The notes beneath the pieces are model-generated. The model saw nothing but the letters and a program-made list of their open reading frames with translations. It was not told the origin of the DNA and did no database searches. The position numbers were made by a program, and so were the translations under genes. A stretch of DNA of 64,000 nucleotides from the NCBI RefSeq assembly GCF_032118995.1, contig NC_092649.1, forward strand, positions 21,389,832 to 21,453,831. Direction: 5' to 3'. This DNA is from Asterias amurensis. Taxonomy: Eukaryota > Echinodermata > Asteroidea > Forcipulatida > Asteriidae. This document shows, piece by piece, positions 1 to 57,309 of this stretch (position 1 is its first letter; each line of letters starts with the position of its first letter).

Positions 1-299
1 AAGCACCAGGCTCAAGCTTGACCGACACTAGAAACACTTTGCTCTCTGCGTCTCTGTAATGAGGCATTACATTAGATGAGGATTAATGGGGTTAATAATA
101 ATACATAATAGTGATACTAATAATAATAATAATTGATTGAACTTATATTGCGCTCTCTCCAGCACCAGCCTGTTAGAGAGCGCATAACAAAATCAATTCT
201 AGTAAGAAACTTAAAATTATGAAAATTAATCCAATCAAATCCTTAACAAGCTTAATGAGGAATACTTGGTGAAAAGAACATGCATATGGCACGAGGATA

Positions 300-700
300 A
301 AAGTATAATCAGAGTGTGCTACCAACAATAACTAACGAAACAGAAACATGGACAACAACAAAACTTATACAGCATAAACTCTGTACAGCTGAAGAGCAAA
401 GGAGAGACGAATGCTACATATCTCAATTAAAGACAGGATTGAATAATTATAATTACGAAAGAAAACTGGAGTAAGAGACATACTGACAATAAAACAAGCT
501 AAATGGAGATGGACTGAACACACTGCCCGAAAAAATGACAGTAGATGGAAAACAAGAATAACGGATGGCAACCAAGGACAGGGAAAGGGAACAGAGGTAG
601 ACAGAGAAGAAGATGGAGAGATGACATCAGGGTAAATGCAGGAACAACATGGACTAGAACTTAAAGAAAAACAAATGAGAAAAACAAATGAGAAAAACAA
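300..700 (+). mobile_element. LINE reverse-transcriptase C-terminal remnant
   Basis: In shifting plus-strand frames this reads IKQAKWRWTEHTARKNDSRW and then GRQRRRWRDDIRVNAGTTW, the (K/R)WxWxGHxAR...GRPxxRWxDDI...AGxxWxR pattern at the end of many animal non-LTR reverse transcriptases. It is short and frame-broken. The subfamily cannot be told. It lies in or beyond an intron of the VIT-VWA gene, antisense to it. Confidence 0.6.
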
Positions 701-906
701 ATGAATCACAGTGGATTGGGACCCAGACATGTCTTTAAAAAAAAATTATAGTTTTTGTTAATGCTTTTACTGAACATATCTAATAGTACTTTTTAAATAA
801 AAAACAATATTTGAAATCACACCGAAATTGACATTTCATTATCAAGCCTCTTCAATCATACGGGGAATCTTCATTTATTGTTATTATGAGCTTTGAAATA
901 TCTTAC

Positions 907-1017
907 AGTTCTGTAATGAAGGCACCACCCTGTGAGATTTCTAAGTTGCCACGATGTAATGTGATATTCTGACTCTTCTCGTTTGCTACACCGTAGTACG
1001 TCTTGCCATCCACAGTC
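907..1017 (-). CDS. Unit 3 VIT exon b
   Basis: 111-bp phase 2-2 exon reading TVDGKTYYGVANEKSQNITL and ending GGAFITEL before GTAAGA. Same length as unit 1 exon b and the same DGKTY motif. The gene continues beyond the left edge. Confidence 0.75.
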
Positions 1018-4000
1018 CTATGGCAAAACAAATTGAAAGTCCTCATCAGTAACATAAATATGCGATGTGTGTTGGTCTCAGGACTATTGAATCCATGGTT
1101 ATCTGATGTTTCTTCTCTGAAGGCACTGGCCTGTTGGGAGTTACCCAAAATGATTGTTAGCATAACAAATTTCTTGTTATTGAGCAATGGAGAGTGCTTT
1201 TGATAGTAGAAATCATTGTTAGAAACGTCTCCCTCTGAAGTAGTATAGTTTTTGAGAAAGAGGTAAAATACTTATCTTCAAGTACGCGCTAATCCTCCAA
1301 TCAGATTCGCAGAATGTTGTGGTGATAAAAACCTATATTGCACGGCTAATATCACTACCTGCGTCTTGTGTGTTCTATGGTCATGCGCCGAGTTTGCTTG
1401 AAGATAAATACATTATCACACGCGCGCTCGTGGAAATACGGAAAAATATAGCGCGTCTTTGTCCCATATCCAACTCGGCCTTCGGCCTTGTTGGATATGG
1501 GACGCAGAAGCGCTACATTTTTCCGTATTCCACTCTCGTTAGTGTGATAACTTATAATGTCTGAAGCACGCAAATTGGTGCATCAAAGGTTGGTCTGTCA
1601 TTATTATCTCGCAACTTCAATGACCAATAGAGTCCAAATTTGTACAGGTTTGTTGTTTCATGCATATGTTGAGATACACCAAGTGAGAATACTGGTCTTT
1701 GACAATTACCAAATGTGTCCAATGCTATTTAAAGTTGTGTTTAGCGTTGATGAATAAAAATGATCTGAAGAGAGAACACTAGAGGTCTAAAATTACACAA
1801 CACCAGTCGTATTCAGAGATTTGTCTCACATTGTGTTGGAGATGATGGGCCATCATTGCATCATATTTCAATAAATCAATGGCCAATGGTACTTTCAATA
1901 GTACTATAGTAGGCCTAAATTGGGGGTCGAATTAGATGAAAATAGAAGATCGTCACAAGGGGAGAATCAGAAAAATGTGAAGTCCTCAATATTTTGTATA
2001 TCTATGCTAATACTTATCAAAGCCATTCAGCATCTGGACAAGGTGAGAAGGCAATGAAGAAATTTCAGTTTTAGATGTGGGAGGAAAATCACAGAGAATC
2101 ATCCCAGGGGACACCCACGCAGTCCGATAGGGACTGAAAACCCGATCCACAAAAGGCGAGGCAAGACACCACTACACCAACCCGACTCCCTAAACTTGAC
2201 CAATTCAAGAACCAACTCAGCAGTAGTGCAGTTAATTACGATCCTATAAGCTAAAGTACACCTAGATAATTTTCTATACCTTCCGTCCAGGTAGTAGTTA
2301 AAAGGCAGGACAGTTCTTTACAGAACTGAGAAGTCTCCCGAACATCCGATAAATCTAATCCGAGGAAGTAAAATAAGAAAGACCAGTCTCTAAGAACAAA
2401 CTCTACCTGGCAAGTAGATACACACATGGTGTTACCGCAAATATATATTGATATCCCACCATGCAATGCCTCAAATCATACATATATACTTCTTTGTTAT
2501 TTAGTTTAAAACTAATATACATACAAAGTAAAGTTAGTGACGTATGCTGGTAGTGGAATCTTCTGTCTAAATACAGCCCAACCAGCTTGGCTTCCAGTAT
2601 TCTCCAATGTAGAACTGATGGTGGTCGTAGCAAATCTCAGTACAATGTCAGAGTCAATGTTTAAACTCTTTATTTCAATGCCATCCTGTAACACAAAATG
2701 AAATCAATTATGAGTTGAGCAAAATAAAACCAACAACTTTCATCATGTTCATACACATTGTTATGCACAAAACCAAACGCCATCCTGTAACACTACAGTT
2801 TATCACACAAGCGAGTGGATTACGAAAAATATATATTGCTTCTGCGTCCCTTATCCAACGAGACCAAAAACGTATTTATCTTCAACCAAATTTGGCCCGA
2901 AGTTAGAATACACAAGACGCAAGGTGTGATATGGTCCATGCAATATGGGTTTATATCACACTCCTTGTTGCCATGGATCGACCAATCAGAATCAAGGATT
3001 CAAGCCTACTTGAAGATAAAAAATGTAAAAAAGTTTGGGTTGAACAAAATAAAATCTACAACTTCACAACTTTCAAACACATCATTATGCAAACAAACAA
3101 AACTGTTTGCTTCTATACTTGCAATTCTGATGCTAAAACACTGTACAGTATAATAAGAAGTTGTTATAACTTTGGCTTACTGTTGGAGCAAGAGTTGTGC
3201 TTCGCAATCGTCTTATTAATATTCAATATTGGACTGATTTGTAATTCAAATTCTTCCAATAAACTGTTTGTTATAACTCAGTTATTTACTCACCGAACTC
3301 TGCGTAGCCACATTGAGGGGATCGTCATGAACCACTACTGGAGGTTGCACTAGAATCCAAACACAAAACATCTCTTATAGACAGTTAAAACATGCGCCTA
3401 ATTATGTAGATGTGTGTGTTATAAAAGATTCAATCATCAGACAGAGATTTGTGAGGCTTTTAAGCCTTGTAATATATTTGTGATCATATATATTCACCTG
3501 TTTAGAAATTGAAACCAGTCTCAGAGAGTGTACCAGTACCGTTAAAAGCCGTATGCTCTGGTGTGAGCAATTTTGTTGCGCTTAGCTACTTTTTGACTGT
3601 ATAAAAGCAGCTCTATGAAATTGGGTCATGGTATCATTATTCAATAATTGGTTAATCAATCACATGAAAACAAGTATAAGAAAAGTGAGTGCAGAATATA
3701 TAAAGAAGATGTAAGCCTGACTGCTGGACTGTACCTGGTATTTCTTCGAGTAGACCTCGTAGTATATCCATAGTTGTTCCTGTATGTATGATGGAAGGTG
3801 GTTGTACGTCAATTCTTGACTGGCCTCGACTCGTCAGAGACAATGGAGTTAACGGAGTCACAAAATTATAACTGCAACAAATTTTAATCACAAAAAAATT
3901 TAAAACACATTTTTAGTCCATTTGCTATCACAATCAACATTTTGATTCTTGGGTCGAATGATAATTTATCATCGTCATAGAAACCAAATTTTGCGTAGTT

Positions 4001-7000
4001 GGGCGAAGGTAAAGTTTAAATTCATAAAATCATTTTCCCACTATATAAATTACTGCTAATGAATCTTGAGCATAATTTTCCAAACTCTGTTATTTCGTTT
4101 ATTTCTTTATCTAAAGGCACGAGACTTATTACTTAATAATTATCAGCCTGAAAACTTACTTGATTGACGAGCAACGGACAGCTGTTGATAGTATAAAACA
4201 TTATGAGTGAAGTAACATAAATGGTGTTTGAAGCTTTGCATAGTGTGAAGAATAATAAGAAGTAACTATGAATACAAAATAGTAAAAAGAGATGTAGAAC
4301 CATCTCTTTTGAGGAAGTGTTGGCGCGGAAACATAGCTTTTTTACATAGAAGTAATTTCTCACTAAAAAAATAAAACTTCAGGCCTGAAGCCTTTTAGTG
4401 GGCATCTGAAAGCACAACACATTATTTATGCAACAATGGTGTTTTTAATTGAGCCCAAATTTGCACAGGTTTGTTACTTTATGATTACTTATGTTGAGAT
4501 ACACCAAGTGAGAATAATGGTCTTTGACAATTACCAAAGGTGTCAAGTGTCTTTAAAGCGTTGTTTGTCTGACAGAAATAAAACACTTTTCTAACAACCG
4601 AGTATTTTCTTACCTTATAGCCAGTTCAGCAATTCTATCAGCTAGTGTCTGGCGTATTGTAGCATCTTCAGTGATGGCATATTGATTAATCAAGTCTTGG
4701 AAGGTTTTGATTGCCCATATTCTCTGCACAACATCAGTTACTGTATGATCGCTATTCAGTTCTGGTCGAGTAATCTGCATTAGAAAACATAACGGTAGTG
4801 GGTAAGTATATTGTTTAATGATTTGGGGTTTAACAAAGACAAATTGAACAGAGTGGGACTCGAACCAGCAACCTCCGGATAAACGTACCGGCGCTCTACC
4901 AACTGAGCTATCTATCCCTGTGTTGGCGATTCCCTATTTTGTCAACATCTTTGTTCGGGATGCCAGTCAGAAACCATACAACCATTTACTGCCAGGGATC
5001 ACACCCAAAATATGATCCGACCTGAGAAGCGGCAGGCAGGGAATCACTTTAAGGGGATGCGACTTTTTGTTTCAGATATCAAATATTATTAACCACAAGG
5101 GATACTGACTGGGTATATTGTTAATAACTTTTGTAACCCACGTTTCAGACAGCGGCGGAAGAGTTGCGCCAAACAATACATTAGGAGCGACTCTAGGTCG
5201 ACACAAACAAACTTTGGTTTCAGACAGGCAAACTTAACATTGGCTCGAATCATGACAAGATCAACGTCTGAAACCAAGGCGATCCTTCTTTCAACTTCTA
5301 GCGCGTCCAGTGCCCTATAGCTGTTTCAGGCATTAAACTTTTACATGTAGGCCTACTTAATTCAGAAGTTGGTTTGTCTCGACTCTGGAGCGCCTGTCTG
5401 AAACGGGTGTATACATTCTCTTGTTGGTGTGTTTAAAGTGACCTAATGCTTACTCTGATATCTTGCCTACTGTTTCCTTGATACGCCTGTCCCATTGCAG
5501 TCTGTCCAGTCACGCTGCCTTGTAACATATTGGATGTTGGACGATCAACCACCTTCCCAGCAACTGATACTTCCGACCCCTCAAAGTAGAACGGGAATGT
5601 CCATCGAGTCAGATCCTCAGGGTTAGAAACCCCCGGCTCGTACTCAAAGTCCACGTCAAAGATAACCGGGCGCGATACGTCAAAATAGGCGTTTTGTAGC
5701 TGTTTGCTAGCATCGGCTGTTTCGTAGATCCTTCTCGCGGAGCCTTGATTCTGAAGAGCCAGTTGTATAAGTAAATCAAAGGATACATTACGTCCGAACC
5801 CAAGGGAAAACAGTGCATGTTTTCCGTTGATAGCTTGAGTAATAGCTTGGATGAGTTCCCTATGGTCTGTGATACCAATCGTTGGTTGACCGTCAGACAA
5901 GACGTACATCATGGATAGGATCTGGTCATTGTCGCTGGTAAACCGCGATTGGAGATCCAGTAAAGCGTCTGCTTGTAACACGGCATCACCCAGATTAGTT
6001 TCTGAAACAAATTCAATATAATTCATAACATACATGTATTTATATGACATGACAGCTTCAGACTTGAAGTCGAATAGTTTTTTAAAGATTATTTAAAGGA
6101 AAACGCTACCTTGGATTGGTCGAGTTGGTCTTTGAAAAGTGTTCGTAACCATTTGTTATAAAATGCATACATGGTTAGAAAGATGTTTTAAAAGTAGAAT
6201 ACAATGATCCACACACATTTGCCTCGAAATTGCGTGGTTTTCCTCTTGCTTTGCAAACTAACACGGTCGGCCATAAATTTTGACTCCCATAAATGGCCGA
6301 CCGTGTTTGTCAACGAGGTAAAAGGAAAACCACGCAATTTCGAGTCATACTTTGTGTGGATCATTATATTCTACTTTTAAAACATCTTTCTAATCATATG
6401 CATTTTATAACAAATGGTTACAAACGCTTTTCAAAGACCAACTCGACCAATCCAATGCAAAATACGGATGGTCTATGGGTCTTCGAGACACGTCTTACTA
6501 CAATTTGTTATTACTTATACCAAATTGCCGCATTTGCATTGTTGCAAGGTTCAAAGAAGTTTTAGAAATAATTGCGAGTTTGAATTGAATTAGATTGAAT
6601 TGTCTTAAAAAGTATGAATACGATTGGTTTTGACTATGGAAATTAATGGCAATTTAACTTACGGGACATGAAGAAGTAGGCCTTGTACAGCACTTTTGGA
6701 TAGTTTAAATGCATTTTGAGGAATATTTCACTTCGAAGTATGGTTATGGCAAAAGATATCACTTTTGTCCCCAAAACTGATATAAGAAGCATTACTGCGG
6801 TAACGCTTCTCAGATTGTGTATTCTTATGGGGATTATTCTTCCTGCGTGGACATATTCACTACGGAGTTTCGGCGATATCTCAAAAACGCATTCACCTTT
6901 TGAACTGATATTTTCACAGATTAGTGTACGACTACATTCGTCCTAGACTAGATTGATACAATCGAAAAACCAAAATGTATACACTGACTCTAAGGCCCAA

Positions 7001-10000
7001 TACATGTATGTCACATGAGGCAATCTACAGGCAACCAGTTACAGGCAACCTCTAAGAAGAAAAGACATTGGATCACATTTCAATGTACACATAGTATTCT
7101 TGGGGTTATTATTCATGTGCTGCTAGCATACACTGCAGTTGGTTGCCTCCAAGTTACCAGTAGAAGTTTCCTCGTGAGAGAAGGCCCAAAAGGTAAAGAA
7201 CTGGCAGCCGATTTCACGAAATGCTAGGATTAATCCGATCCTAAGTTAGGATGAGTAACTTTTCCTAATTAAGGATGAGTTCAATGCGTCCTGACGCCTA
7301 TAGATACAGAACTTAACTCGTCCTACATGAAGTCCTAAGATTAACTGCTAAGTTAGGAAGAGTTTGGTGAAATCGACAACTGGCACAGTAAGGTAATACG
7401 AAACCCTTAAAACTGGCAACACAACACTTTACCTCCTTGGTCTATAAGACCATCTACAAATGTTTTAGCAGCTTCGATGTTCCTTCGTGAAGCCGTTACC
7501 AGTGCATTGCGTCTCCAGTATTGAACATCGTCTGAGAATACCAGGATATTAAATCGATCGTTGGGTCCCAGATCATCAAGAATAATCTTAAGAGCTTCTT
7601 TAACTTGACGTAGTTTAGTTCCGGCCATGGAGCTACTGATGTCAATGACAAATACAACCTGTTTATCGGCATGCTCGAAGTTACTCGGTGAAAAGAAGTG
7701 CACAAAATGGTCATCATCCACCTGTATACACAATGTAAACCAGTTGATGGTTATTCATTCCAAACATTTGTACAGAACTTCAAAACAATACTTTGGCTAC
7801 TAAGCCCGATTCATATACTTCTTACGACTTTTTGACGTCACAAATTCGCATTGAATAGTTTTGAGACATTCGCAGCGAAACCGGAGCTATGACCTCAACA
7901 CTCTAAGTATTCATGTTCGCAGAAAGTGTGAACTGGACTTAGGTCATTTGAAGCACTTTGACAAATCTTCAAACAATACTTCTGCTAACCCTGGTTCATA
8001 TACTTTCTTTGAATACAAATGCTATACGAATGTTGACATCACTGTTTACGCAGCGAATGTTTCGCAAAAAATAAGTCAACTAACGCAAATTTATTCTTTG
8101 CGAGTTTGTGAAGTAAGAAATCTATCGCATTCGCAGTAAGTATGAACCAGGCTTAACTTAAATAGAAAAAAGTGTTTATTTACATCTCCCGTAAGACCTT
8201 GCTTGGGGAAGAACCGACAGTACATTATTTACCTCCGTGTAACTACCATCAGCAGAATGCCTGACGTCATAGGTTAGAACCATATCACCAGCCAAACCAT
8301 CCGATGTATAGGCTAGCTGCTCATTTGCTGATGGTGAATAGCGCATATGCGCCCTATAATCACTTGAACGTCTCACCTTAAATTAAAAAAGAAAAATTTA
8401 AAAAAGTTTTTGTTGCCGAGTATGGTTGGAAAAAGTTGTGTTATTATACCAATCACCGCCTTGCTCCAACATGAAGTTGAAAGATACAAGACGCTTAAAT
8501 GCACTGAACACCTTAAGCAACTGTCAAAGACCAGTATTCTCACTTGATGTATCCCAACATGCTTTCAGATACCTAATAAAATGCTTCAGGCCTGATGTGT
8601 TTTATTATTTGAGTGAGAAATAACCTCAAGAACTTCTTAACTTCGGAGGGAGCCGTTTCTCACAATGTTTTAACTATCAGTTAAGCTCTCCATTGCTCAG
8701 TACCATAGTTTTAATGCTAACAGTTTGTTTGAGAAATTAACTAATTAGAAGCTTTCTTCTACCGTTATCTTCAAACTGTGTAAATCTAATGTCAATCTGT
8801 TGACTGTTTGTTTTGTGTTAGAAAAAAGTACTTATACACTTGAAACAAAATGTACTTGTTAGAATGGTGTTAATACTCTCCAAATAACCACTGTGATTGA
8901 TGATGTGGGTTATCTATTGAAGCAAATACACCTTTGTAACCCTTTTTTCAGCACACTTCACTCTCATTCTAGGTATAGGAAAAAAGCACAAAAAAAACTA
9001 ACCGTTGGCACCTCTATCCCTCCACCAAGTATACAAAGGTTTCTGGGCGTACGGTTAGCGCAGCTACACCTAGAAGTGGCTGTGCGACATCACTACTTCT
9101 ACTATAAAATTTCAAACAAATTTCTATGTATGGATGTCAGTATATATATGAGCCTCAGTTACTTTTTCACTACGTTTAGATTATCTCTAGTTTAGGCATT
9201 TTTCCAAATTAAGCTGTTTTGCCGTACGGTGGGCTATACATCTTACCCTGATTTACTAAATATTACCTGGAAGTCTCGCTGTGTACCATCCGATGTACGT
9301 GGGTAATACCTGAGAGCCACATCACCTAAACCCTGTGGTTCAGTTATGTACATATCAACCTGTAGGTCGTCAACCACCTTCAAAATAAAAAAAAACATTA
9401 ATATCATGAACGTAATGGTATGCTTAGAGAACTTTTAACAATGTTCAAGTCACTACTGTCGTCATCGTTCCTTTGAAGGCACTGCCGTCGATTTCACCAA
9501 ACTTTTCCTACCTTAGGATTCCGTATCGTAGGGACGCAATGGACCCATCCTAAGTTAGGCTGAGTTACTCGTCCTCTAGCAATTCGTGAAATAGGCTGCT
9601 GGACCCCTTTGGTAATTGTCAAAAACCAGTCTTCTCATTTGAAGTATCTCAACATAAGCGTAAAATAACAAGCCTGTGAAAATATGGGCTCAATTGGTCT
9701 TCGAAGTTGTAAGAGAATAACGAAAGAAAAAACACCCTTGTTTCACAAATGTTTGTGCTTTCAGATGCCCAATAAAAGGCTCCAGGCTTGAAGTCTTTCG
9801 TTATCTCAGTGAGAAATTACCTCTTTTGAAAAAAAAACTACGTTATTTCGGAAGGAGCCGTTTCTCACAATGTTTTATACTATCAACAGCTCCCCATTAC
9901 TCGATACCAAGTAAGTTTTTATGCTAAAAAATATTTAAGTTATAACCAATAGTGTCCACTGCCTTTAAAGCATTTAAAAGTGTCTTTAACATTACCAAAG

Positions 10001-28000: not shown

Positions 28001-31000
28001 TGTCGTGCTGGCAAACCTCAATAAAATCTTAGTCTCCACTTGAAACAGTTGTACATCGTTTCCTCTCTAAAAAACGTATATTGTTTAGTGATGTAGTAAA
28101 CATGTTGTCAACATAACGGTAGAAAGAACGATTGACAAATAAAAGAATAAAGTCAGCCAAGCATGCCAGTGGCTGGACTGTGCGAGCGAGCCAGCCACAA
28201 GGCAGTCTTGAGTCAGCATGCAAGCAGTATGTCCCCTGCACTTTCTTAAGCCGGGACTCAAGATTCACCCTATAGCTAACGCTATACAATAATTGGAAAC
28301 ATTTAAACACTCCTATAAGAAACCTCCGTTCTACAAAGACACCCTTAATAGCCACCAAAGCGTATGGTCAACAAAGTTTTCAGTTTGCGGCACCTCACTG
28401 TATGGAACAATATCTCCCTCTTCACATCTAACAAGCTACCACTATCTCAAGTTTCAAGACTCTTCTCAAAACATTTTTTGGATAATTAATCTATCATTTA
28501 TTCTTTTGTTCCTCTGCTGCGCCCTTAGACTAGAGACTTTATTTTGGAGGTTAGGTGCTATAGAATTAGAAAAGCAGTTGTTATTAATGTTAATTAATGT
28601 AGAGACACAAGAAGGAGAGCCGGTCCTCTATTGTCTAATTAACAAAGGACAAACATTCGCCAAAATAAATACATACAATAAAATAATAACTGCAAAGCTA
28701 AAAAAAGACGGCTTCTCCTGTAGCCTGTACAGGTTTATTTTCTTCAACCCGTTAGTAGTTGCGATAACATAACCCTCCTGATCTTCGCTGCGGGAGGAGG
28801 GTTTCGTTATCGCAACAACTACCCATATACCACAAAATATACAGTAAATGCAAACTTGAGCTTGTTGAGCCACATTAATAAGAAACCTTACTAGGGGCTA
28901 CTACTATACACCAAGTTACACAAAGGACAACTGCAATCACATAGTTTTGGGTTCAAATCTAAGCCAAGCTAACCGCTGATTTTACATTGACTATCTAGCT
29001 AGAGTAGTTGTCGTCTAGTTGCTTGCTTTGAAAATTTATTAAGTGATTTGTGCAACTTATTAAAAAAATACGGTGTTTGGTTGGACGTAACGTGATGATG
29101 TAGTTAAAAAACAGTGAACAATAAATATGACTTTTTATACAGTGTGTTGTTACTTTATAGTTAAACTTGTTTGCGTGAGATTGGCATCAGGTTTTATTTT
29201 GCCCACTTATGGAAGCCCTTAAAAAATTTGGCTCACCCGGTGTGGCGGTTTCAACTTTCCGATGTGTTCAGTTTTCCGATTGACCAAATACGGTAGCATT
29301 ACGTCATGCTATGCCTGCGCACAGCAAGCGAAAGTAGTCCATTTTTAGTGTCGTATTGAGTCGGTCGTTACCCTCCGGTAGCTGTCATGGCGGCGTCCAC
29401 GAGTCGAGTACAACTAGCGGTAAACGCGTGGATCGTATGAATTATGAGTTGTTTTTTATGCAAGCAGAGTGTGACCTGCCTAAGTTGTACCCATGAATAC
29501 ATGTAAAGATGGGGCAAGAGATTATGTGACTACACAGAAAAGAATCGTAATATATAAACAATGTGGGGTCACTGCTGAGAGAAGTACGTTACTCGCCAGC
29601 GTACTCGCGGCGGTATCTGAGAGGTCACCTGGAAAACTGAACACGCCGGAAAGCTAAAACCGTTCGAACAACGTGATGATATTTCTGACTACGTCGCCCG
29701 GAAAACTGAACACGGCGGAAGACTGAAACCGCCACACCTGCCTGCACTGGATGCTGTACACAGATTTGATAATCAACACCGCCCTCTTTTGTTGGACAAA
29801 AGAGAGCGCTGCTGGAATTTCCTCAAAAACATTCGCGCCACTATGATTTTTACAAATTTTAAACGTTGTTTTATTGTAAATGTAATACCCGATGACGTAA
29901 TTATGATAGGCCTGTGATGTCTTGATACTAAGGTTCAACTAACTGTTACAAATCATATGTTGGTGATAAGGTTTTTCAAATAATTATTTTTGATAAATAT
30001 CGAGTGCTTTGCACCGCGAATTGTCGGAACGAACTCGTGACGTCACTGAAATGCCTATTTATATCCATTTGTGGGAGTTTGCTGAGTTCCCCATTGAGAT
30101 CATTCAAACTAACAAACAAACAAACAAACAAACAAACAAACAAACAAACAAACAATGCACTGTCGGAGCGTGCTCAAAGAAAGGTCACAAAAAGGTCAAA
30201 AATCAGGGCTCCAGGCTCCTAGCCCACACACCGCACACGCGATGCGCGCCTCCTGTCAATACACACAAGTGACACGGCATGGTCTAGTACTACACGTCTA
30301 CGCATTAATCATTAATGTATTGTACCATTAATTTAATGGTACAATACAAATAATCCGATCAAAGTAGGGTCCTAGAAATCACAATAATTCGGATAAACTG
30401 AGGGTTTAAACACAAAACAATACTCACAAGTGGCTCTTTGAGCTTATCTCTTCCAAATGAATAGCTTTTGGAGCATGGCCAGAGCCATGCTCCCTATACA
30501 AACAGAGAGAAATCTGGACCAAATAAGACAAGTGTCAAGACGAAGAAGGTGAAGAAAACAAACGTGATTGTCACGTGACAATCCAAAAGTAAACTTTTGT
30601 ACAAGTTCAACACTGAGGGCGCATGTGGGAAAACAATACGCTTTCACGGATAGCCAGAGTATGATAAGAAAAACAAAATTGCAAGCAGGTGTCTCTGGGA
30701 AATCTGTTTAATCATTGCCTTTTGAGAGTGACGTCTACATGTATTGTGTGCAAATGTTATTGTGAGATATGAATTAAACATCTCTGTCAAAGTGAGTACA
30801 ATCATAAGGCACGTCCAAGATAAAGAAGAAGAAGAAGAAAAAAAAAAAAAAAAACAGTTGATCGTCCGGTTTTGTTTTTTTAAAAGAGAAGGATGAGGAT
30901 CAGATTTTTTTTTAGTTTATTTCTTTTTGAAGGTGGCCGCCAAGCATTTTAATTCAAACAGGCCACTAATGTTATAAAAATTTGTGCTTTAAAAAAAAAA

Positions 31001-37000: not shown

Positions 37001-37701
37001 CAAATCGTTTCACCGCTTTGTCTGATGAAGCTGGATCTGTCTTTTCACTTGGTGTATCTCAACATAACGCACAAAATGAGAAGGGTTGCTTTCCGTATGG
37101 CGCCTTCACCTTTTCACTCACTTTTACATAAAGGGATATCTCATTGTGGTATATTATTTCATATCGAACGAAAAAGTGATGGGGCCATACTTGAATATTT
37201 TCCAATAAGAAACCTGTGAACAGAAATTGAACTCAATTTGGTCGTTGAAGTTGCGAGATAATAATGGAAGAAAAAAAAAACCATTGTCACACGAAGTTGT
37301 GTGTTTTAGATGCTTGATTTCTAGACCTCAAAATCAAATTCTGAGGTCTCGAAATCAAATTCATATTAGTGGAAAATTATTCCTTTCTCGAAAACTACGT
37401 TTCTAAAGAGGGGGCCGTTTCGCACAATGTTTTATACTATGAACAGCTCTCCGATTCTCGCTACCATGTAAGGCTTTGCTAATTATTATTTTGAGTAATT
37501 ACCAATATTGTCCAGTGCATGCCTTTAATAGGCCCTTATAGTCTATACCGGTAGGATAAATTCTAAAATACAGCTATCCCTTACCTTTGAATATCTGGCC
37601 TTTCGTAAAGGCCTAGCAATCCAGTCTTTCTGCGAAAGGGCATGTATACCAGATAACATCAACAGAAATAACAACGCACGATGAGTCGACGAACCAATCA
37701 T
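907..37701 (-). CDS. Tandem VIT-VWA (ITIH-like) secreted polyprotein gene, 23 exons in window, 3' end beyond left edge
   Basis: Reconstructed from splice sites and translation. Coding exons in order: 37585-37701 (signal peptide), 31477-31527 (furin site), unit 1 = 27906-28066, 26630-26740, 25550-25688, 24763-25074, 23465-23659, 22187-22280, 15833-16150, 14724-14959, 13875-14213; unit 2 = 12852-13021, 11550-11657, 10228-10369, 9267-9377, 8233-8376, 7433-7721, 5454-6001, 4614-4774, 3735-3871, 3294-3349; unit 3 start = 2525-2685, 907-1017. The exons sum to about 4.2 kb (about 1,400 residues) with no stop and matching phases at all junctions. Each full unit is a VIT domain followed by a VWA domain with a MIDAS DxSxS motif (DVSGS, DISSS), as in inter-alpha-trypsin inhibitor heavy chains, which are secreted and bind extracellular matrix. 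I see no DPH hyaluronan-coupling motif between units. Vertebrate ITIHs have a single VIT-VWA unit, so the tandem layout is unusual. Alternative: separate tandem genes wrongly joined, but no stop or new signal peptide was found between units. Confidence 0.78.
1122..1737 (-). repeat. MITE family 1 copy interrupted by a palindromic element
   Basis: Outer parts (1122-1267 and about 1590-1737) match the abundant MITE whose ends read CAGTGGACACTATTGG and whose body contains GAGACGGCTCCCTCTGAAG-like sequence. The middle (about 1268-1575) is a different element containing a long hairpin at 1428-1545. Confidence 0.6.
1428..1545. repeat. Long hairpin inside MITE insertion
   Basis: The arms GTGGAAATACGGAAAAATAT and its near-complement ATTTTTCCGTATTCCAC enclose a second pair, GTCCCATATCCAAC / GTTGGATATGGGAC, with loop TCGGCCTTCGGCCT. 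A related single arm occurs near 2805-2880. Confidence 0.7.
2525..2685 (-). CDS. Unit 3 VIT exon a
   Basis: 161-bp phase 0-2 exon after GTGTTACAG. It reads DGIEIKSLNIDSDIVLRFAT, then TTISSTLENTGSQAGW and LPAYVTNFTL, a new VIT domain start. Donor GTATGT. Same length and phases as unit 1 exon a. Confidence 0.75.
3294..3349 (-). CDS. Unit 2 short linker exon
   Basis: 56-bp phase 1-0 exon reading VQPPVVVHDDPLNVATQSS between TTCTAG and GTGAGT. It has no domain of its own and was recognised because it bridges unit 2 and the next VIT exon in frame. It lacks the DPH motif used for hyaluronan transfer in vertebrate ITIHs. Confidence 0.6.
3735..3871 (-). CDS. Unit 2 YxFVTPLT exon
   Basis: 137-bp phase 2-1 exon starting YNFVTPLTPLSLTSRGQSRI, the invariant YxFVTPLTS signature of ITIH proteins, and ending GLLEEIPG. 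Confidence 0.85.
4125..4562 (-). repeat. MITE family 1 copy
   Basis: Ends with GACAATTACCAAAGGTGTCA and TTTAAAG. The body has the family's CAGCTGTTGATAGTATAAAA and GCACAGGTTTGTTA segments. Diverged. Confidence 0.55.
4614..4774 (-). CDS. Unit 2 C-terminal helix exon
   Basis: 161-bp phase 0-2 exon reading ITRPELNSDHTVTDVVQRIW and TFQDLINQYAITEDATIRQT, then LADRIAELAI. This is the RxWAxxxIxxL-like helical region after VWA in ITIHs. Splice sites are TAATGCAG and GTAAGA. Confidence 0.85.
4835..5100 (-). repeat. tRNA-derived SINE
   Basis: Minus strand reads ATAGCTCAGTTGGTAGAGCG (A-box-like) and GGTTCGAGTCCCACTCT (B-box-like), then a TTTGTTAAACCCCAAATCATT tail. Upstream lies another copy of the body (GTCGCATCCCCTTAA). 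The same unit recurs at 14440-14700 and 20187-20310, so it is a SINE rather than a tRNA gene. Confidence 0.7.
5137..5411. repeat. MITE with TIR ACCCACGTTTCAGACAG
   Basis: The left end ACCCACGTTTCAGACAGCGG pairs with the right end CGCCTGTCTGAAACGGGTGT. A related right end occurs at about 11295-11326. No coding capacity. Confidence 0.6.
5454..6001 (-). CDS. Unit 2 VWA exon b and post-VWA region
   Basis: 548-bp phase 1-0 exon. It reads TNLGDAVLQADALLDLQSRF, MMYVLSDGQPTIGITDHREL and FSLGFGRNVSFDLLIQLALQ, then RPVIFDVDFEYEPGVSNPE and FPFYFEGSEVSVAGKVVDR, and ends RQDIR. The third MIDAS loop is SDG here against TDG in unit 1. It merges two unit 1 exons. Confidence 0.92.
6092..6466. repeat. MITE family 2 (long palindrome), nearly full
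   Basis: An about 375-bp foldback. Left arm GGATTGGTCGAGTTGGTCTT, right arm AAGACCAACTCGACCAATCC, centre TGGCCGACCGTG. Full relatives lie at 33356-33750, 36452-36846, 48380-48768 and 58439-58760. Open frames inside come from the palindrome and are not genes. Confidence 0.85.
7208..7380. repeat. MITE family 3 (GCCGATTTCAC ends)
   Basis: Left end GCCGATTTCACGAAATGCTA pairs with right end GAAGAGTTTGGTGAAATCGA, with internal CCTAAGTTAGGATGAGT repeats. Other copies: 9485-9600, 53905-53972, 61668-61832 and partial 18020-18060. Confidence 0.65.
7433..7721 (-). CDS. Unit 2 VWA exon a (MIDAS DISSS)
   Basis: 289-bp phase 0-1 exon reading VDDDHFVHFFSPSNFEHADK, then VVFVIDISSSMAGTKLRQV with the D-x-S-x-S motif, FNILVFSDDVQYWRR, and GLIDQG at the end. 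It covers what two exons encode in unit 1. Confidence 0.9.
7798..8157. repeat. MITE with TIR TAAGCCCGATTCATATACTT
   Basis: The left end is repeated internally at about 7985 (CCTGGTTCATATACTTTC) and inverted at the right end (AAGTATGAACCAGGCTTA). It contains repeated TTCGCAGCGAA-like motifs. Intronic. Confidence 0.55.
8233..8376 (-). CDS. Unit 2 linker exon b
   Basis: 144-bp phase 0-0 exon reading VRRSSDYRAHMRYSPSANEQ and LAGDMVLTYDVRHSADGSYT, corresponding to VRMEFFPNEQ...GDLILRYDIEH in unit 1. Donor GTAAAT. Confidence 0.85.
8494..8755 (+). repeat. MITE family 1, truncated
   Basis: Starts TTAAATGCACTGAACACCTT, carries CTGTCAAAGACCAGTATTCT and GGGAGCCGTTTCTCACAATG, and decays before the right end. 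Confidence 0.55.
8800..9240. other. Intron sequence, nothing recognised
   Basis: About 440 bp of A/T-rich intron between MITE remains and the VIT-VWA exon at 9267. No domain-like translation or strong repeat seen. Confidence 0.5.
9267..9377 (-). CDS. Unit 2 linker exon a
   Basis: 111-bp phase 0-0 exon reading VVDDLQVDMYITEPQGLGDV and ending TQRDFQ. It is homologous to the start of the single unit 1 linker exon (VVRDLRIMAYISEPQG). Confidence 0.85.
9471..9968 (+). repeat. MITE family 1 with nested MITE family 3 (9485-9600)
   Basis: The outer element starts TTTGAAGGCACT and ends AACCAATAGTGTCCACTGCC TTTAA. Family 3 (GCCGTCGATTTCACCAAACT to AATTCGTGAAATAGGC) has landed 14 bp inside its left end. 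This gives a relative age: family 3 was active after this copy inserted. Confidence 0.7.
10228..10369 (-). CDS. Unit 2 VIT exon c
   Basis: 142-bp phase 2-0 exon reading DPTKDTFTMRVADVAPQSSV, LTYDELLERRSGVFEHRVNL and WPGQ, the most conserved VIT segment. Acceptor ACCCACTAG, donor GTGATA. Confidence 0.9.
10415..10700. repeat. Repeat with TACGTACAC palindromes
   Basis: Flanked by TTGCCGCAATATGAATGAAA and the inverted TTCATGTTGCGGCAATATGC. The interior has many GTGTACGTAC / TATCGTGTAC motifs. Relatives, partly in tandem, lie at 15000-15300. Confidence 0.55.
11062..11191. repeat. Foldback MITE (GGCCATGTCCGAAACGGC ends)
   Basis: Left arm GGCCATGTCCGAAACGGC and CTTCGGCTACAGCTACAGCT pair with the right arm AGCTGTAGCCGAAG and TTTCGGACACGGCC. 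130 bp, little loop, no coding capacity. Confidence 0.75.
11550..11657 (-). CDS. Unit 2 VIT exon b
   Basis: 108-bp phase 2-2 exon reading EIDGRTYTGKVGDIRDSEWQ and ending ALVTK before GTAAAAG. DGRTY matches the same exon in units 1 and 3. Confidence 0.8.
11780..12237 (-). repeat. MITE family 1 with embedded SINE fragment
   Basis: Contains GAGAAACGGCTCTCTCTGAA and ends GGTTCAGTGCCTTTAA. The segment 12095-12180 (ACACCAATGTGTGTTAGCAC) resembles a SINE tail also seen at 31645. Confidence 0.5.
12240..12850. other. Intron sequence, nothing recognised
   Basis: A/T-rich spacer between the MITE and the unit 2 VIT exon. No coding or repeat signature recognised. Confidence 0.5.
12852..13021 (-). CDS. 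Unit 2 VIT exon a
   Basis: 170-bp phase 0-2 exon after TATATTCCTCCAG. It reads EPVQEIDLHRLHIESRITDR, AQTNLVGELINRGEAHQDIP and FTFLIPPGAFISDFK, a well-conserved VIT start. Donor GTAAGT. Confidence 0.88.
13071..13480 (+). repeat. tRNA-Leu-type SINE
   Basis: Starts GTGATCATGGCCTAGCGGTT (A box) and GAGCATCGGACTC, then a body and a tail reading AAGCGCTATATCAGAAGCCA, typical of deuterostome V-SINE-like elements. About 410 bp, intronic. Confidence 0.65.
13875..14213 (-). CDS. Unit 1 last exon (C-terminal helix region and linker)
   Basis: 339-bp phase 0-0 exon. It contains TERTAAFITLAQLFNEYTVS and AVQLSRQFNLLTPLMSMTIS, the region preceding the C-terminal part of ITIHs (xxYxxxTPLTS), then a glycine/serine/tyrosine-rich linker. 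It ends with a GTAAGTC donor and joins in frame to the first VIT exon of unit 2 at 12852-13021, the main evidence that the units form one protein. Confidence 0.8.
14440..14700 (+). repeat. tRNA-derived SINE
   Basis: Reads ATAGCTCAGTTGGTAGAGCA, then GGTTCAAATCCCGCTCTAGT, then the TTTATCCCAAAATCATTT and GTCGCATCCCCTTAAGG tail. Same family as 4835-5100. It ends just before the exon at 14724. Confidence 0.7.
14724..14959 (-). CDS. Unit 1 post-VWA exon
   Basis: 236-bp phase 1-0 exon reading VYDEVATPLLANIAIEYLGD and then FQNYFEGSEFAISGRLA, the conserved Y-x-E-I-x-x-P-L-L and YF-x-GSE-x-x-V-x-G segments that follow VWA in ITIH proteins. Donor GTAAGT. Confidence 0.85.
15000..15300. repeat. Tandem pair of TACGTACAC-type repeats
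   Basis: Two head-to-tail units of about 150 bp share CCACATGAATAAAAAC, ATCGTGTACGTAGATTTGTT and TCATGAGGTGGCAATA. Related to 10415-10700. Confidence 0.6.
15513..15681. repeat. Foldback element (GGGTGCGTTCGTTTAG ends)
   Basis: Arms GGGTGCGTTCGTTTAGCTCC and AAACTAAACGAACGCACCC, with an inner CCAGGACGAACGTG / CACGTTCGTCCTGG pair. A second copy is at 38034-38196. Confidence 0.8.
15833..16150 (-). CDS. Unit 1 VWA exon c
   Basis: 318-bp phase 1-1 exon starting TNLNDAMIDGLNQLRLAG. It contains ILFVLTDGDPTKGV (third MIDAS loop, TDG) and VVTLGFGAGDVDFNFLARLA, then ARKIFRNYPVADQLVG. All are classic ITIH VWA landmarks. Confidence 0.9.
16340..16695 (+). repeat. MITE family 1 copy
   Basis: Starts TTAAAGACACTGGACACTAT and follows the family consensus to GTATGTACCAGTACC. 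Inside the 6-kb intron. Confidence 0.65.
17010..18160. other. Intron sequence, little recognised
   Basis: Preceded by a SINE tail (16895-17010, CAGCGCCTTGACTACC). Contains only a short family 3 fragment at 18020-18060. No coding signal on either strand. Confidence 0.45.
18165..18300 (+). repeat. tRNA-derived SINE fragment
   Basis: Reads GTCTAGTGGTAAGACATCTG and GGGTTCAAATCCCACCTGAG, A- and B-box-like, then GATTTGCCTGTGGATTG. Antisense relatives lie at 26110-26200 and a cousin at 35455-35560. Confidence 0.6.
18620..18797 (+). repeat. MITE family 1, right half
   Basis: Ends with GTGTCCAGTGCCTTTAA and carries the CAACAGTTCTCCATTG segment. Left half absent. Confidence 0.5.
19233..19973 (+). CDS. 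Secreted C-type lectin domain + PAN/apple-like domain protein, intronless
   Basis: 246 residues in one exon. Residues about 1-32 are a signal peptide (VLFHLLILMTMQSIIVLSS). Residues about 34-155 are a C-type lectin domain: CPTGWVKWRQSCY start, WMQAEAACKRPGSNLIVP, WIDCTD, FTNWEQDNPS, and FWSDNRECQKRRSAVCKM at the end. The EPN/QPD sugar-specificity tripeptide is not present at the usual place (it reads QDNP) and WND reads WSD, so calcium-dependent sugar binding is uncertain. Residues about 177-246 have a PAN/apple-like cysteine pattern (CPLNHVIHNLAVKGVIACGW, RCRSFNVWQ, CQLNN). The gene lies wholly inside the 16151-22186 intron of the VIT-VWA gene on the opposite strand. Lack of introns suggests retroposition or a naturally single-exon family. 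The stop codon falls inside a 7-bp tandem repeat. Confidence 0.85.
   Translation: MKSVIIMLLQSMNTVLFHLLILMTMQSIIVLSSCPTGWVKWRQSCYILLPDKMNWMQAEAACKRPGSNLIVPDSKDENDFIFEWAVKGKMGMWIDCTDAAQEGVWLCAGEPPKFTNWEQDNPSSKNDFNCAGMRKAHGFWSDNRECQKRRSAVCKMPFPIEPIYHTLLGPDGRVSQYCPLNHVIHNLAVKGVIACGWACTSDPRCRSFNVWQSSKKEKKCQLNNVTFLEDDHTDSKDVEGCVYFEL
19961..20023 (+). repeat. 7-bp tandem repeat overlapping the lectin stop codon
   Basis: Nine units of CTTTGAA / CTTTGCA (63 bp). The first two units encode the last residues FEL and the TGA stop at 19971-19973. Confidence 0.85.
20187..20310 (-). repeat. tRNA-derived SINE head
   Basis: Minus strand reads ATAGCTCAGTTGGTAGAGCG and GGTTCGAGTCCCACTCTAGT, same family as 4835-5100. 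Truncated. Confidence 0.65.
20310..21240. other. Downstream flank of lectin gene, partly duplicated
   Basis: 20393-20545 repeats the flank at 20118-20185 plus 20318-20360 (shared GGAAGGATACATG and AAAAGTCATGTAGTAG). The rest shows nothing recognisable. Confidence 0.5.
21241..21620 (+). repeat. MITE family 1, full-length reference copy
   Basis: 380 bp from TTAAAGGCAGTGGACACTAT to ATAGTGTCCACTGCCTTTAA, with an internal hairpin TTTCAAGACCTCAAG / TGAGGTCTTGAAAT. A possible TGTTA target duplication flanks it. No coding capacity. Confidence 0.9.
21620..22186. other. Intron sequence, nothing recognised
   Basis: Spacer between the MITE and the unit 1 VWA exon b. Only short A/T-rich stretches seen. 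Confidence 0.4.
22187..22280 (-). CDS. Unit 1 VWA exon b
   Basis: 94-bp phase 0-1 exon reading VYHWREDEMVEASLRNIHLA and ending LKDLAG across the junction. The next exon completes AGTNLNDA, the T-containing MIDAS loop. The following intron (16151-22186) is 6 kb and hosts a lectin gene on the other strand. Confidence 0.75.
22622..22851. repeat. Foldback element rich in CCATTGAATCCCATT
   Basis: Ends CCCAGGAAAAAATTCCCATT and AATGGGAATTTTTTCCTGGG are exact inverted repeats. The 230-bp interior is made of inverted AATGGGATCCCATTGAA-type words. Confidence 0.85.
22860..23460. other. Intron sequence, nothing recognised
   Basis: Between the foldback element and the unit 1 VWA exon a. No domain-like translation. 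A small inverted pair TCAAAACCATT / AATGGTTTTAA near 23320-23342. Confidence 0.4.
23465..23659 (-). CDS. Unit 1 VWA exon a (MIDAS DVSGS)
   Basis: 195-bp phase 0-0 exon. It reads KFGDVFVHHFSPGGLEP, then TVAFVIDVSGSMYGKKLNQT, the first beta strand and metal-ion-dependent adhesion motif D-x-S-x-S of a VWA domain, and ends FNIITFSDE before GTAAG. Confidence 0.88.
23750..23935. repeat. Inverted-repeat element (GTTGTACAATTGTTGCA)
   Basis: Contains GTACAATTGTTGCAAGCTGT on the left and the inverted GCGTGCAACAATTGTTTTGT on the right, with a GCACCCGAGGTGAAGCCGAG / CTATTTTTCCC core. Intronic. Confidence 0.5.
24245..24500. repeat. Interspersed repeat (GCTAGTCGAAAC family)
   Basis: Contains GAGCAAGCTAGTCGAAACT, GTGGTTAAAAGCAGGACAGTTCTTT and AATCTACTCCGTGG. 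The same words occur at 2250-2430, 33085-33215, 52290-52395 and 55440-55560, so this is a dispersed family, possibly a LINE 3' end. Confidence 0.5.
24763..25074 (-). CDS. Unit 1 linker exon between VIT and VWA
   Basis: 312-bp phase 0-0 exon starting VVRDLRIMAYISEPQG and ending LRYDIEHDYDVGHVQ, with a serine/glycine-rich tract in the middle. It corresponds to two separate exons in unit 2 (9267-9377 and 8233-8376), so an intron was gained or lost between the units. Its first half is duplicated just upstream at 25142-25315. Confidence 0.8.
25142..25315 (-). pseudogene. Partial duplicate of the unit 1 linker exon
   Basis: Near-identical direct repeat of 24937-25110 at an offset of 205 bp. It contains the exon's acceptor and first 40 or so codons (EPQGISKVESGIVQ) plus some upstream intron. 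It breaks off in the LYGLT region, lacks an aligned donor, and reaches a TGA soon after, so it is probably not used as an exon. Confidence 0.7.
25318..25500 (+). repeat. SINE/LINE 3' tail
   Basis: Reads CAGCGCCTTGAGTATGTGCA then CTATATAAGACTTTGTTATT and a TTATTATTATTT end, like the tail at 16895-17010. Confidence 0.5.
25550..25688 (-). CDS. Unit 1 VIT exon c
   Basis: 139-bp phase 2-0 exon reading DPDRNTFMVSVSVAPGDTVD and then NYQELLERIQGWYTQKISINP. The F-x-V-x-V-x-P...Y-x-E-L-L-E-R pattern is the conserved second half of VIT domains. Confidence 0.8.
25795..26205 (-). repeat. Cluster of tRNA-like SINE fragments
   Basis: Three B-box-like stretches on the minus strand (GGGTTCGAATCCCCAAC, GGGTTCGAATCCCAACT, GAGTTCGAGTCCCACCT) at about 25810, 25935 and 26150. 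None forms a full tRNA cloverleaf by eye. Confidence 0.55.
26235..26575. repeat. MITE family 2 copy
   Basis: Right end AAGACCAACTCGACCGATCC then AAGGCAATGTGTTCCCTTAA. Internal ATGGCCAGCCTTGTTAG. The left end is diverged. It ends about 55 bp before exon 26630-26740. Confidence 0.7.
26630..26740 (-). CDS. Unit 1 VIT exon b
   Basis: 111-bp phase 2-2 exon. After the split Leu codon it reads DVNGVTYIGSPRDK, matching DGxTY in the equivalent exons of units 2 and 3. Acceptor ATATTTTCAG, donor GTAAGT. Confidence 0.72.
27090..27420 (+). repeat. MITE family 1 copy
   Basis: Carries TTCAAAGACCAGTCTTCTCA and GAGGGAGCCGTTTCTCACAA and ends TGTGTCCAGGGCCTTTAA. Directly abuts a second copy. Confidence 0.6.
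27417..27806 (+). repeat. MITE family 1 variant with AAGGTACACGTTTGG ends
   Basis: Begins CAGAAGGTACACGTTTGGAA and ends CCAAACTTGTACCTTCCCTT. A distinct TIR subtype of the same body, placed head-to-tail with the previous copy. Confidence 0.65.
27906..28066 (-). CDS. Unit 1 VIT exon a
   Basis: Phase 0 to 2 exon after TTTTTTAG, before GTAAGTC. It reads RGNDVQLFQVETKILLRFAS and continues to AYIANFTL, the first strands of a VIT domain. Same length (161 bp) and phases as the first exon of unit 3. Confidence 0.75.
28240..28530 (+). mobile_element. LINE 3' remnant
   Basis: Plus-strand translation gives VFSLRHLTVWNNISLFTSNK then LSQVSRLFSKHFL, the (R)xFSxxxPxLWNxLPxxLR...FKxxLKxxL(F) end of CR1/L2-like reverse-transcriptase ORFs. 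Broken and short. Confidence 0.5.
28530..29230. other. Intron sequence, little recognised
   Basis: Contains an inverted pair around TTGCGATAACATAACCCTCC / GGAGGGTTTCGTTATCGCAA at 28757-28820. Otherwise nothing. Confidence 0.45.
29238..29740. repeat. Element with GTGTGGCGGTTTCAA terminal inverted repeats
   Basis: Left end GTGTGGCGGTTTCAACTTTC and right end AGACTGAAACCGCCACAC are inverted repeats about 500 bp apart. Both ends repeat AACTGAACAC/CGGAAA words. Non-coding. Confidence 0.65.
30109..30154. repeat. (AAAC)n microsatellite
   Basis: Eleven or so uninterrupted AAAC units. Creates spurious open frames. Confidence 0.95.
30155..31040. other. Intron sequence, nothing recognised
   Basis: Includes a perfect palindrome ATTGTACCATTAA / TTAATGGTACAAT at 30319-30346 and a poly-A/GAA tract at 30826-30855. 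No coding signal. Confidence 0.45.
31044..31363. repeat. MITE with TTAAAGGGTTTATGTACT ends
   Basis: The left TTAAAGGGTTTATGTACTAT pairs with the right AAAAAGTACCCGAATCCTTT AA. Inner AGAAAGCTTCCCTTGAAA pairs with TTTGAAGGGAAGCTTTCC. 320 bp. It lies 110 bp from the furin-site exon. Confidence 0.7.
31477..31527 (-). CDS. VIT-VWA gene exon 2: 17-residue exon with furin site
   Basis: A 51-bp phase 0-0 exon between TTATTTCCAG and a GTGAGT donor. It reads TFASTNPFRVKRQAYYG. RVKR fits the R-x-K/R-R proprotein convertase consensus just ahead of the first VIT domain, which is where ITIH precursors also carry a propeptide. Its small size makes it less certain than the domain exons. Confidence 0.55.
31792..32533. 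repeat. Two MITE family 1 copies, inverted (31792-32204 minus, 32199-32533 plus)
   Basis: The first reads in minus orientation, ending GTGTCCAGTGCCTTTAAAG. The second starts at once with TTTAAAGACAGTGGACACTA and runs to AATAGTGTCCAGTGCCTTTA. They share the TTTAAAG junction. Confidence 0.7.
32702..32881 (+). CDS. Possible first coding exon of an unknown gene
   Basis: A CTTTCAG acceptor-like site, then ATGATGGCAACGCAG giving MMATQLVWLPLQTVNKPA and on to SEAETNCKDESDS, and a GTAAGT donor after 32880. Composition looks coding, but I recognise no domain and no further exons. It lies in the first intron region of the VIT-VWA gene on the other strand. Could equally be a transposon fragment. Confidence 0.25.
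33356..33750. repeat. MITE family 2, full-length
   Basis: TAAAGGAACACGTTGCCTTG at the left and CAAGGCAACGTGTTCCTTTA at the right, foldback throughout, centre ATGGGAGTCAAAATTTTGAG. Confidence 0.88.
33991..34677 (-). repeat. Two overlapping MITE family 1 copies, same orientation
   Basis: 33991-34373 (TAAAGGCAGCGGAATCCATT to TTTGCCAATAGTGTGG) and 34398-34677 (GAGAAACGACTCCCTCTGAA to ACCAATAGTGTCCAGTACTG). The second lacks its left end, suggesting a tandem duplication or recombination product. Confidence 0.6.
34680..35450. other. Intron sequence, nothing recognised
   Basis: No repeat or coding feature recognised on either strand. Confidence 0.4.
35455..35560 (+). repeat. tRNA-derived SINE fragment
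   Basis: TCTAGTGGTAGGACATGTAC and GGGTTCGAATTTCACCTGAG are A- and B-box-like. Confidence 0.5.
35640..35850. repeat. MITE-like repeat with GCGCTTACG motifs
   Basis: Starts GGGCCCAATTTCATGGCTCT, contains inverted TTATGCGCTTACG / CCGTAAAGCGCC words. A matching left end is at about 55803-55830. Confidence 0.45.
36027..36365 (+). repeat. MITE family 1 copy
   Basis: TTAAGGCACTTGACACCTTT at the left and GAGTAATTACCAATTTAG at the right, with the GGAGCCGTTTCTCACAATG body. Confidence 0.6.
36452..36846. repeat. MITE family 2, full-length
   Basis: TAAAGGAACAAGTTGCCTTG left, CAAGGCAACGTGTTCCTTTA right, foldback. Confidence 0.85.
37030..37530 (+). repeat. MITE family 1 with internal insertion
   Basis: Family body from TTTTCACTTGGTGTATCTCA, broken at about 37078 by 140 bp (AAGGGTTGCTTTCCGTATGG to ATATTTTCCAATAAG), and resuming at ACCTGTGAACAG to the right end near 37530. 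It stops about 55 bp before the signal-peptide exon's splice donor side. Confidence 0.55.
37585..37701 (-). CDS. VIT-VWA gene exon 1: signal peptide
   Basis: Encodes 39 residues beginning MIGSSTHRALLFLLML, a basic/polar start followed by a hydrophobic core and a likely cleavage near GIHA/LSQ. It ends AAAG before a GTAAGG donor, phase 0. The open frame runs further upstream on the minus strand, but the ATG at 37699-37701 is the one that puts the hydrophobic stretch at the N terminus, so I chose it. It is spaced 6 kb from the next recognised exon. Confidence 0.65.
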
Positions 37702-41571: not shown

Positions 41572-41919
41572 TGCTCGGAGAAAGGATAGCGCGACCTACG
41601 TCCAACATCCTGGTCGCGTCCACGGTCCCTCCACAAGTTGGGGGTTTTACGTGGCCACTGAGCGCTGATAACTCAGCCTGGTGTTGGACGCCGAGCTTTT
41701 GTTGCACGTTTTTCAGTAGCAACACCAAATTAAGTGCATATTACACGCACTTGCTTCTATATATTCTGAAACGACAGATAATTTTCCTTATCTCTGAATT
41801 TTTGCAGACCGGCTAATTTAGCCATGTATTAGCAATTATTGCATATACATATATATAGCTTTTAGGCTATGGTACGGAGCACAACTTTTGCTGCTCTCTT
41901 TTTACTTTGTCTGTTTCAG

Positions 41920-56382: not shown

Positions 56383-56506
56383 ATTCCCTTGTGCCTTTTG
56401 TCGCTCTGTAAAAGTTGGCTCTGCACACTACGCTCTTCAGCTGAGCAAACTGCGTGCTCCGGGTAGCACTACCTCGCAGAGTGGTGATGTTCCAGTGGTT
56501 GATATC

Positions 56507-57239: not shown

Positions 57240-57240
57240 C

Positions 57241-57309
57241 ATGGAGGGACGCAACAGAGGTGTAGCCGCGATATTGTTGTGCATCTTTTCTGCATCACTT
57301 TTGGCACAG
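57241..57309 (+). CDS. Somatomedin-B gene exon 1 (signal peptide)
   Basis: 23 residues, ending CACAGG before GTAAGTATG, phase 1. The open frame extends upstream through the minisatellite without an ATG and reaches a stop at 56527, so the ATG at 57241 is the likely start. Confidence 0.7.

Follow-up and report, generated by a model that had tools for sequence, protein, structure and literature searches.

Could a single starfish gene encode several of the VIT-VWA units that ITIH proteins carry one at a time? To our knowledge, each described ITIH member has one such unit; the Pfam families themselves set no such requirement. A preliminary description of the window, the whole 64,000-nucleotide stretch analysed here (contig C2, 21389832-21453831), had proposed a tandem polyprotein with at least two complete units and one partial unit in one gene. 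As judged from its sequence, the gene is an ITIH homologue whose known parts stand in a new arrangement. The titles and abstract openings of the matches listed in our literature search included no multi-unit ITIH; the search left most subscription journals outside its scope, which makes this limited evidence.

Structure and domains of the predicted three-unit gene

The gene runs off the low end of the window, and its model was completed with 110 kb of DNA from beyond that end (assembly of 491.5 Mb in 23 contigs). Positions are given in window coordinates, negative values lying beyond the low end. We built the models manually on the basis of homology and phases, using minus-strand reading-frame homology and the inspection of splice sites; an automatic exon chain across the whole region contained many spurious small exons and served only as a guide. 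The resulting gene model, copy 1, comprises 30 minus-strand exons from 37701 to -8635 and encodes 2,154 amino acids with a lone stop at the end. A signal-peptide exon is followed by VIT-VWA units A, B and C, an ITI_HC_C domain and the stop (Table 1).

Table 1. Features of copy 1 in window coordinates (negative values lie beyond the low end of the window).
Feature	Position	Strand	Description
Exon 1	37585..37701	-	Start codon and signal peptide MIGSSTHRALLFLLMLSGIHALS; donor phase 0
Unit A	13875..28066	-	Exons A1-A9, aa 40-674; VIT, VWA with MIDAS motif DVSGS, then a part aligning to the rest of the ITIH core
Exons A1-A5	28066-27906, 26740-26630, 25688-25550, 25074-24763, 23659-23465	-	
Exons A6-A9	22280-22187, 16150-15833, 14959-14724, 14213-13875	-	
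A-B junction intron	13022..13874	-	853 bp, phase 0/0, donor GTAAGT; no AATAAA, one ATTAAA; no signal-peptide-like frame found
Unit B	3294..13021	-	Exons B1-B9 (B4 in two parts), aa 675-1296; MIDAS motif DISSS
Unit B, first five exons	13021-12852, 11657-11550, 10369-10228, 9377-9267, 8376-8233	-	
Unit B, last five exons	7721-7433, 6001-5454, 4774-4614, 3871-3735, 3349-3294	-	
B-C junction intron	2686..3293	-	608 bp, phase 0/0, donor GTGAGT; no AATAAA; signal-peptide-like frame at 2939 without suitable donor
Unit C, window part	1..2685	-	C1 2685-2525, C2 1017-907, C3 from 53
Unit C, beyond window	C3 to -85, C4 -1257..-1517, C5 -2437..-2725, C6 -4124..-4668, C7 -5505..-5883	-	
Exons C8-C10	-6852..-6950, -7361..-7729, -8412..-8635	-	ITI_HC_C and stop; end at contig C2:21381196

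The count of 23 exons given earlier for the window was matched by 22 whole exons and the first part of a 23rd that crosses the low end (53 to 1), and the boundaries 37701, 14213-13875, 13021, 3349-3294, 2685 and 907 were all reproduced, as was the single signal peptide at the far 5' end (exon 37701-37585). The multi-unit reading stood, and the count of at least two complete units and a partial one is to be amended to three complete units and one ITI_HC_C, the third unit ending outside the window. The GT-AG borders of all introns lend the model no independent support, because GT-AG was required when the exons were chosen. Some splice sites score low, for example the B8 acceptor (-0.5), the C1 donor (-1.5) and the B1 donor of a second gene of the same layout, copy 2 (-1.1). 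The signal-peptide exon is separated from the next exon by 9,518 bp in copy 1 and by 11,522 bp in copy 2.

Both VIT and VWA scored above the Pfam cut-off in all six units of the two genes (A, B, C and A', B', C'), so that the domain search proposed earlier for the spliced product returned both domains in each of its three units. ITI_HC_C was matched in C and C' alone (62.6 bits in copy 1 and 94.2 bits in copy 2, against a Pfam cut-off of 27), with no match in the first two units of either gene. Units A, B and C each align to human ITIH4 and ITIH1 over at least 560 residues, with E values from 6.3e-77 (weakest) to 4.9e-109 (best), and chance is therefore excluded; C' likewise aligns to the human ITIH1/ITIH4 core. 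The several MIDAS sites that had been suggested for one chain are present as DxSxS and DG sequence motifs, that is, as predicted metal sites, in every unit of both genes. The MIDAS residues reported for human HC1, Asp298, Ser300, Ser302 and Asp403 (PMC7170535), have their counterparts in these motifs in all six units.

How does such a chain compare with known family members? Both genes open with a signal-peptide-like exon (predicted in silico), in line with the secretion that characterizes the ITIH family; copy 1 departs from the family's single-unit form in having three VIT-VWA units. With ITIH1 and ITIH4 (PDB 6fpy, 9c4f) the starfish chain shares the core alignment of each unit, the MIDAS motif, the signal peptide and the C-terminal ITI_HC_C. 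It differs from them in combining three cores with one C-terminal domain and, in copy 1, in the missing DPHF motif.

Three further reading frames on the plus strand of the window were recorded. Within the 6 kb A6-A7 intron, opposite to the gene, lies a single-exon C-type lectin reading frame (PF00059, E 1.2e-12; 19272-19970). An open frame of 405 residues (62546-63760) has a Somatomedin B domain barely above the Pfam cut-off, and one of 350 residues (41859-42911) resembles, by eye, a tyrosine recombinase of a mobile element, with no Pfam match at E 0.001. In addition, long repeat-coded open frames occupy both strands at 56437-57393, the plus-strand one repeating every 17 residues (YDRDRSIAVRDRDSDYQ, by eye).

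One gene or several

Are units A, B and C parts of one gene, or do they belong to three neighbouring genes? We consider it highly probable that their exons form one gene and are spliced into one mRNA, mainly because there is a single C-terminal domain, the junctions are short and in phase, and the whole layout is repeated in copy 2. The 0-0 phases described earlier for the A-B (13875/13021) and B-C (3294/2685) junctions were confirmed, and all four junction introns of the two genes are phase 0/0, with lengths of 853 bp (copy 1) and 772 bp (copy 2) for A-B and of 608 and 227 bp for B-C.

A very improbable alternative would be a row of three genes that have separate promoters and signal peptides and were duplicated together as a block. 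Tandem single-unit ITIH loci do exist on the same chromosome, and a block duplication would equally yield the pairs A/A', B/B' and C/C'. However, junction introns of just 227-853 bp speak against separate genes, as does the absence of ITI_HC_C from A, B, A' and B', since this domain is present in all three single-unit loci that we modelled. The in-frame linkers are also partly conserved toward matching phase-0 donors, the linker ends being alike in both copies, where GIG..(I/V)CT lies close to the A9 donor and VAT.SS precedes the B9 donor.

Separate genes should also have signal-peptide exons of their own. We scanned for exons that open with an ATG, contain a hydrophobic stretch and a cleavage-like site, and end in a phase-0 donor. 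Both real signal exons were recovered, and the four junction introns gave no match. This agrees with the earlier observation that the chain is open, with no stop or new signal peptide between units. The scan gave 14 matches in 83,840 bp of introns, which corresponds to about 0.4 matches expected by chance in the junctions, so that the test is weak when taken alone; its sensitivity control consists of two exons, themselves picked using a similar scan, because the signal-peptide exons of the single-unit loci were not found.

When the donor was left out of the scan, 61 matches were obtained over 173,831 bases. Three of them fall in two of the four junction introns, at 2939 (copy-1 B-C) and at -43292 with an inner start at -43334 (copy-2 A-B); these would favour separate genes, but no donor above 2 accompanies any of them. 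The copy-2 B-C intron holds, by eye, a short hydrophobic ATG frame whose donor phase is wrong for C1. Furthermore, the full scan gave one match within the B7-B8 intron, at 4303-4160. Its phase excludes splicing to B8 (phase 2) and to B9 (phase 1); splicing to C1 would be possible in principle, but no equivalent turned up when copy 2 was scanned.

Alternatively, one gene might give several products, with alternative polyadenylation in the junction introns yielding one-, two- and three-unit chains. This is compatible with a single gene, and we regard it as unlikely. Read-through past the A9 donor soon meets a stop in both copies, as such a mechanism would have it, but the resulting tails are unlike, with 3 codons to the stop in one copy and 26 in the other. 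The hexamers are similarly divided: AATAAA occurs in the copy-2 A-B intron and ATTAAA in two other junction introns, yet three of the four introns lack AATAAA, and 0.74 occurrences are expected by chance in the fourth. Within 1.5 kb past the stop, copy 1 has seven AATAAA and copy 2 has none. Poly(A) signals thus do not discriminate between one transcript and separate genes.

The word polyprotein, in the sense of a chain that is later cleaved, was not supported. No RX[KR]R cleavage site was found in the linkers of either protein, and a single dibasic pair was seen, in the copy-1 A-B linker.

A second gene of the same layout and the single-unit loci

Copy 2 begins 3,888 bp past the copy-1 stop and extends from -12524 to -63091, with 29 exons encoding 2,199 amino acids: a signal peptide, units A', B' and C', and ITI_HC_C. 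The copies differ in exon number by a single intron, which lies between B3 and B4a. We rejected a single six-unit gene running through both copies, because copy 1 has a stop at -8635 and copy 2 opens with its own signal-peptide exon at -12524. Both gene models are open chains of phase-compatible exons, each with one stop. Copy 2 thus repeats both the layout and the phase-0 junctions, with ITI_HC_C once, after the third unit, and the earlier proposal of several ITIH-like units in one gene is strengthened accordingly.

In a tree of nine cores, A/A', B/B' and C/C' are each joined with a support of 100. The fork uniting A, B, C and the single-unit genes has a support of 43, too low to order the origin of A, B and C. 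On the simplest reading of these sequences, the three-unit form would be older than the gene duplication. The whole-protein comparison of the copies over 2,139 codons gave a dS of 1.87 and a dN/dS of 0.131, and the three cores gave 0.107, 0.124 and 0.130, all rough values because synonymous sites are near saturation. Taken together, the position-wise pairing of the units and a dN/dS of 0.13 at a dS of 1.9 make the three-unit form look old and selected. In the signal exon, the linkers and the ITI_HC_C part, where dS was not computable, the amino-acid identities are 23% for the signal exon, 54% for the A-B linker, 50% for the B-C linker, 36% for the C linker and 43% for the ITI_HC_C part.

Could the region instead be a degenerate or misassembled tandem array with no working gene? 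The introns are filled with repeats, and the two copies resemble each other unexpectedly closely in exons C1 and C2, as an array of this kind might show. We nevertheless consider it extremely improbable, given that both coding chains, of about 6.5 kb, are intact, that the cores have a dN/dS of 0.107-0.130 and that the MIDAS motifs are present. A recent assembly duplicate is disfavoured by the diverged introns, since those of copy 1 and copy 2 gave no alignment at a blastn E of 1e-8 except for apparent dispersed repeats.

The likeness of the two exons is confined to them. Exon C1 (2525-2685 against -52992..-53152) is 96.3% identical between the copies and exon C2 (907-1017 against -53716..-53826) 95.5%; identity in the remaining 26 exon pairs compared is 46-84%, and the intron between C1 and C2 does not align. 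Either exon-limited gene conversion or unusual constraint may account for this.

Relatives with a single unit lie elsewhere on the same contig. Genome-wide, where counts of domain matches are lower bounds, at least nine ITI_HC_C matches were found, all on contig C2, and two of them end the two genes described here. We modelled three single-unit loci, S0 at 13.915 Mb (L021), S1 at 13.926 Mb (L020) and S2 at 25.57 Mb (L024, L025), by automatic models whose 5' ends are unreliable. By Pfam, each has one VIT, one VWA and one ITI_HC_C, the last as a partial match in S1; the VIT of S2 is reported in two stretches because of spurious small exons inside that part of the model. They share similar exon phases, the VIT-VWA core and ITI_HC_C with the fused genes, and differ in their single unit, whose identity to the fused units is 30-36%. 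VIT matches were also found on contigs C5, C14 and C18, none of which has an ITI_HC_C match among the matches found. In other echinoderm work, a putative ITIH3 is reported from the coelomic fluid of Holothuria tubulosa (PMC12119288), and ITIH2/ITIH3 from regenerating gut (PMC11244903).

Three more loci at 13.945-13.991 Mb, known from matches only, have match scores that are the same as those of S1 or differ little from them. Between 13.926 and 13.991 Mb there are four ITIH loci, 17.8-18.9 kb apart, whose VIT match scores are identical or almost identical, an array that looks like a recent tandem expansion.

As to the other contigs, contig 23 was taken as the mitochondrion, because a match there spans the full COX1 profile and contains internal TGA codons. 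Contig C5 (658874-676634) bears two further COX1 copies. Their spacing of 16.4 kb is close to the length of one mitochondrial genome, which suggests either that mitochondrial DNA was inserted in tandem into the nuclear genome or that the assembly is at fault.

The DPHF motif and a possible multivalent mode of action

The DPHF motif is the site at which ITIH heavy chains are cleaved and coupled by an ester bond. It is kept in copy 2 (VDGDPHFVVNV) and in S0 and S2 (DSDPHF), and was not found in the L020 sequence of S1. In copy 1 the corresponding residues are GGGNSKLKVQ, and no DPHF occurs in any of the three frames read on the coding strand from C7 onward to the stop; this ITIH homologue should therefore not be coupled through an ester. 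Copy 2, with its VDGDPHF, could still undergo cutting and esterification to a glycosaminoglycan. A subunit of inter-alpha-inhibitor is characterized by covalent attachment either to chondroitin sulfate or, by way of TSG-6, to hyaluronan. The genome has at least one Link-domain match (PF00193), at contig C20:6091178-6091453, which is of interest with regard to hyaluronan.

What might three heads on one chain do? Human HC1 is reported to resemble an integrin beta chain, to self-associate through its MIDAS with Mg2+ (KD 35.3 uM at 1 mM) and to bind complement C3 in a MIDAS-dependent manner (PMC7170535). If the starfish chain stays in one piece, it would present three cation-dependent MIDAS heads on one polypeptide. 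Weak contacts between heavy chains, or between heavy chains and ligands, could thereby turn multivalent through avidity, and the protein might serve to cross-link matrix or to capture ligands, C3-like proteins among them. Three MIDAS heads working multivalently would be the likeliest mode of action, and we consider this functional part plausible yet somewhat doubtful. The MIDAS motifs in all six units would fit the multivalency suggested in the preliminary description, and no finding points to clotting, its other suggestion, in particular.

In inter-alpha-inhibitor, HC1 and HC2 are described as carried on the chondroitin sulfate of bikunin (PMC7170535). The predicted starfish protein would resemble it in keeping several heavy chains together in one secreted molecule, and would differ in that its units are joined by peptide and number three rather than two. 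More speculatively, and in our view with a fairly low likelihood, starfish, or echinoderms more widely, may have a peptide-fused heavy-chain trimer that does without the bikunin-chondroitin sulfate scaffold. Its two old paralogues would have parted, one remaining anchorable to a glycosaminoglycan through DPHF and the other acting as a free trivalent MIDAS adaptor, with each diverged unit taking a different ligand.

For the family as a whole, a directly encoded joined form would represent another route to a multivalent MIDAS protein, next to the vertebrate inter-alpha-inhibitor, in which a glycosaminoglycan joins the heavy chains. A single recombinant chain would let the value of multivalency be tested, and the pair of copies with and without DPHF offers a natural comparison of couplable and non-couplable forms.
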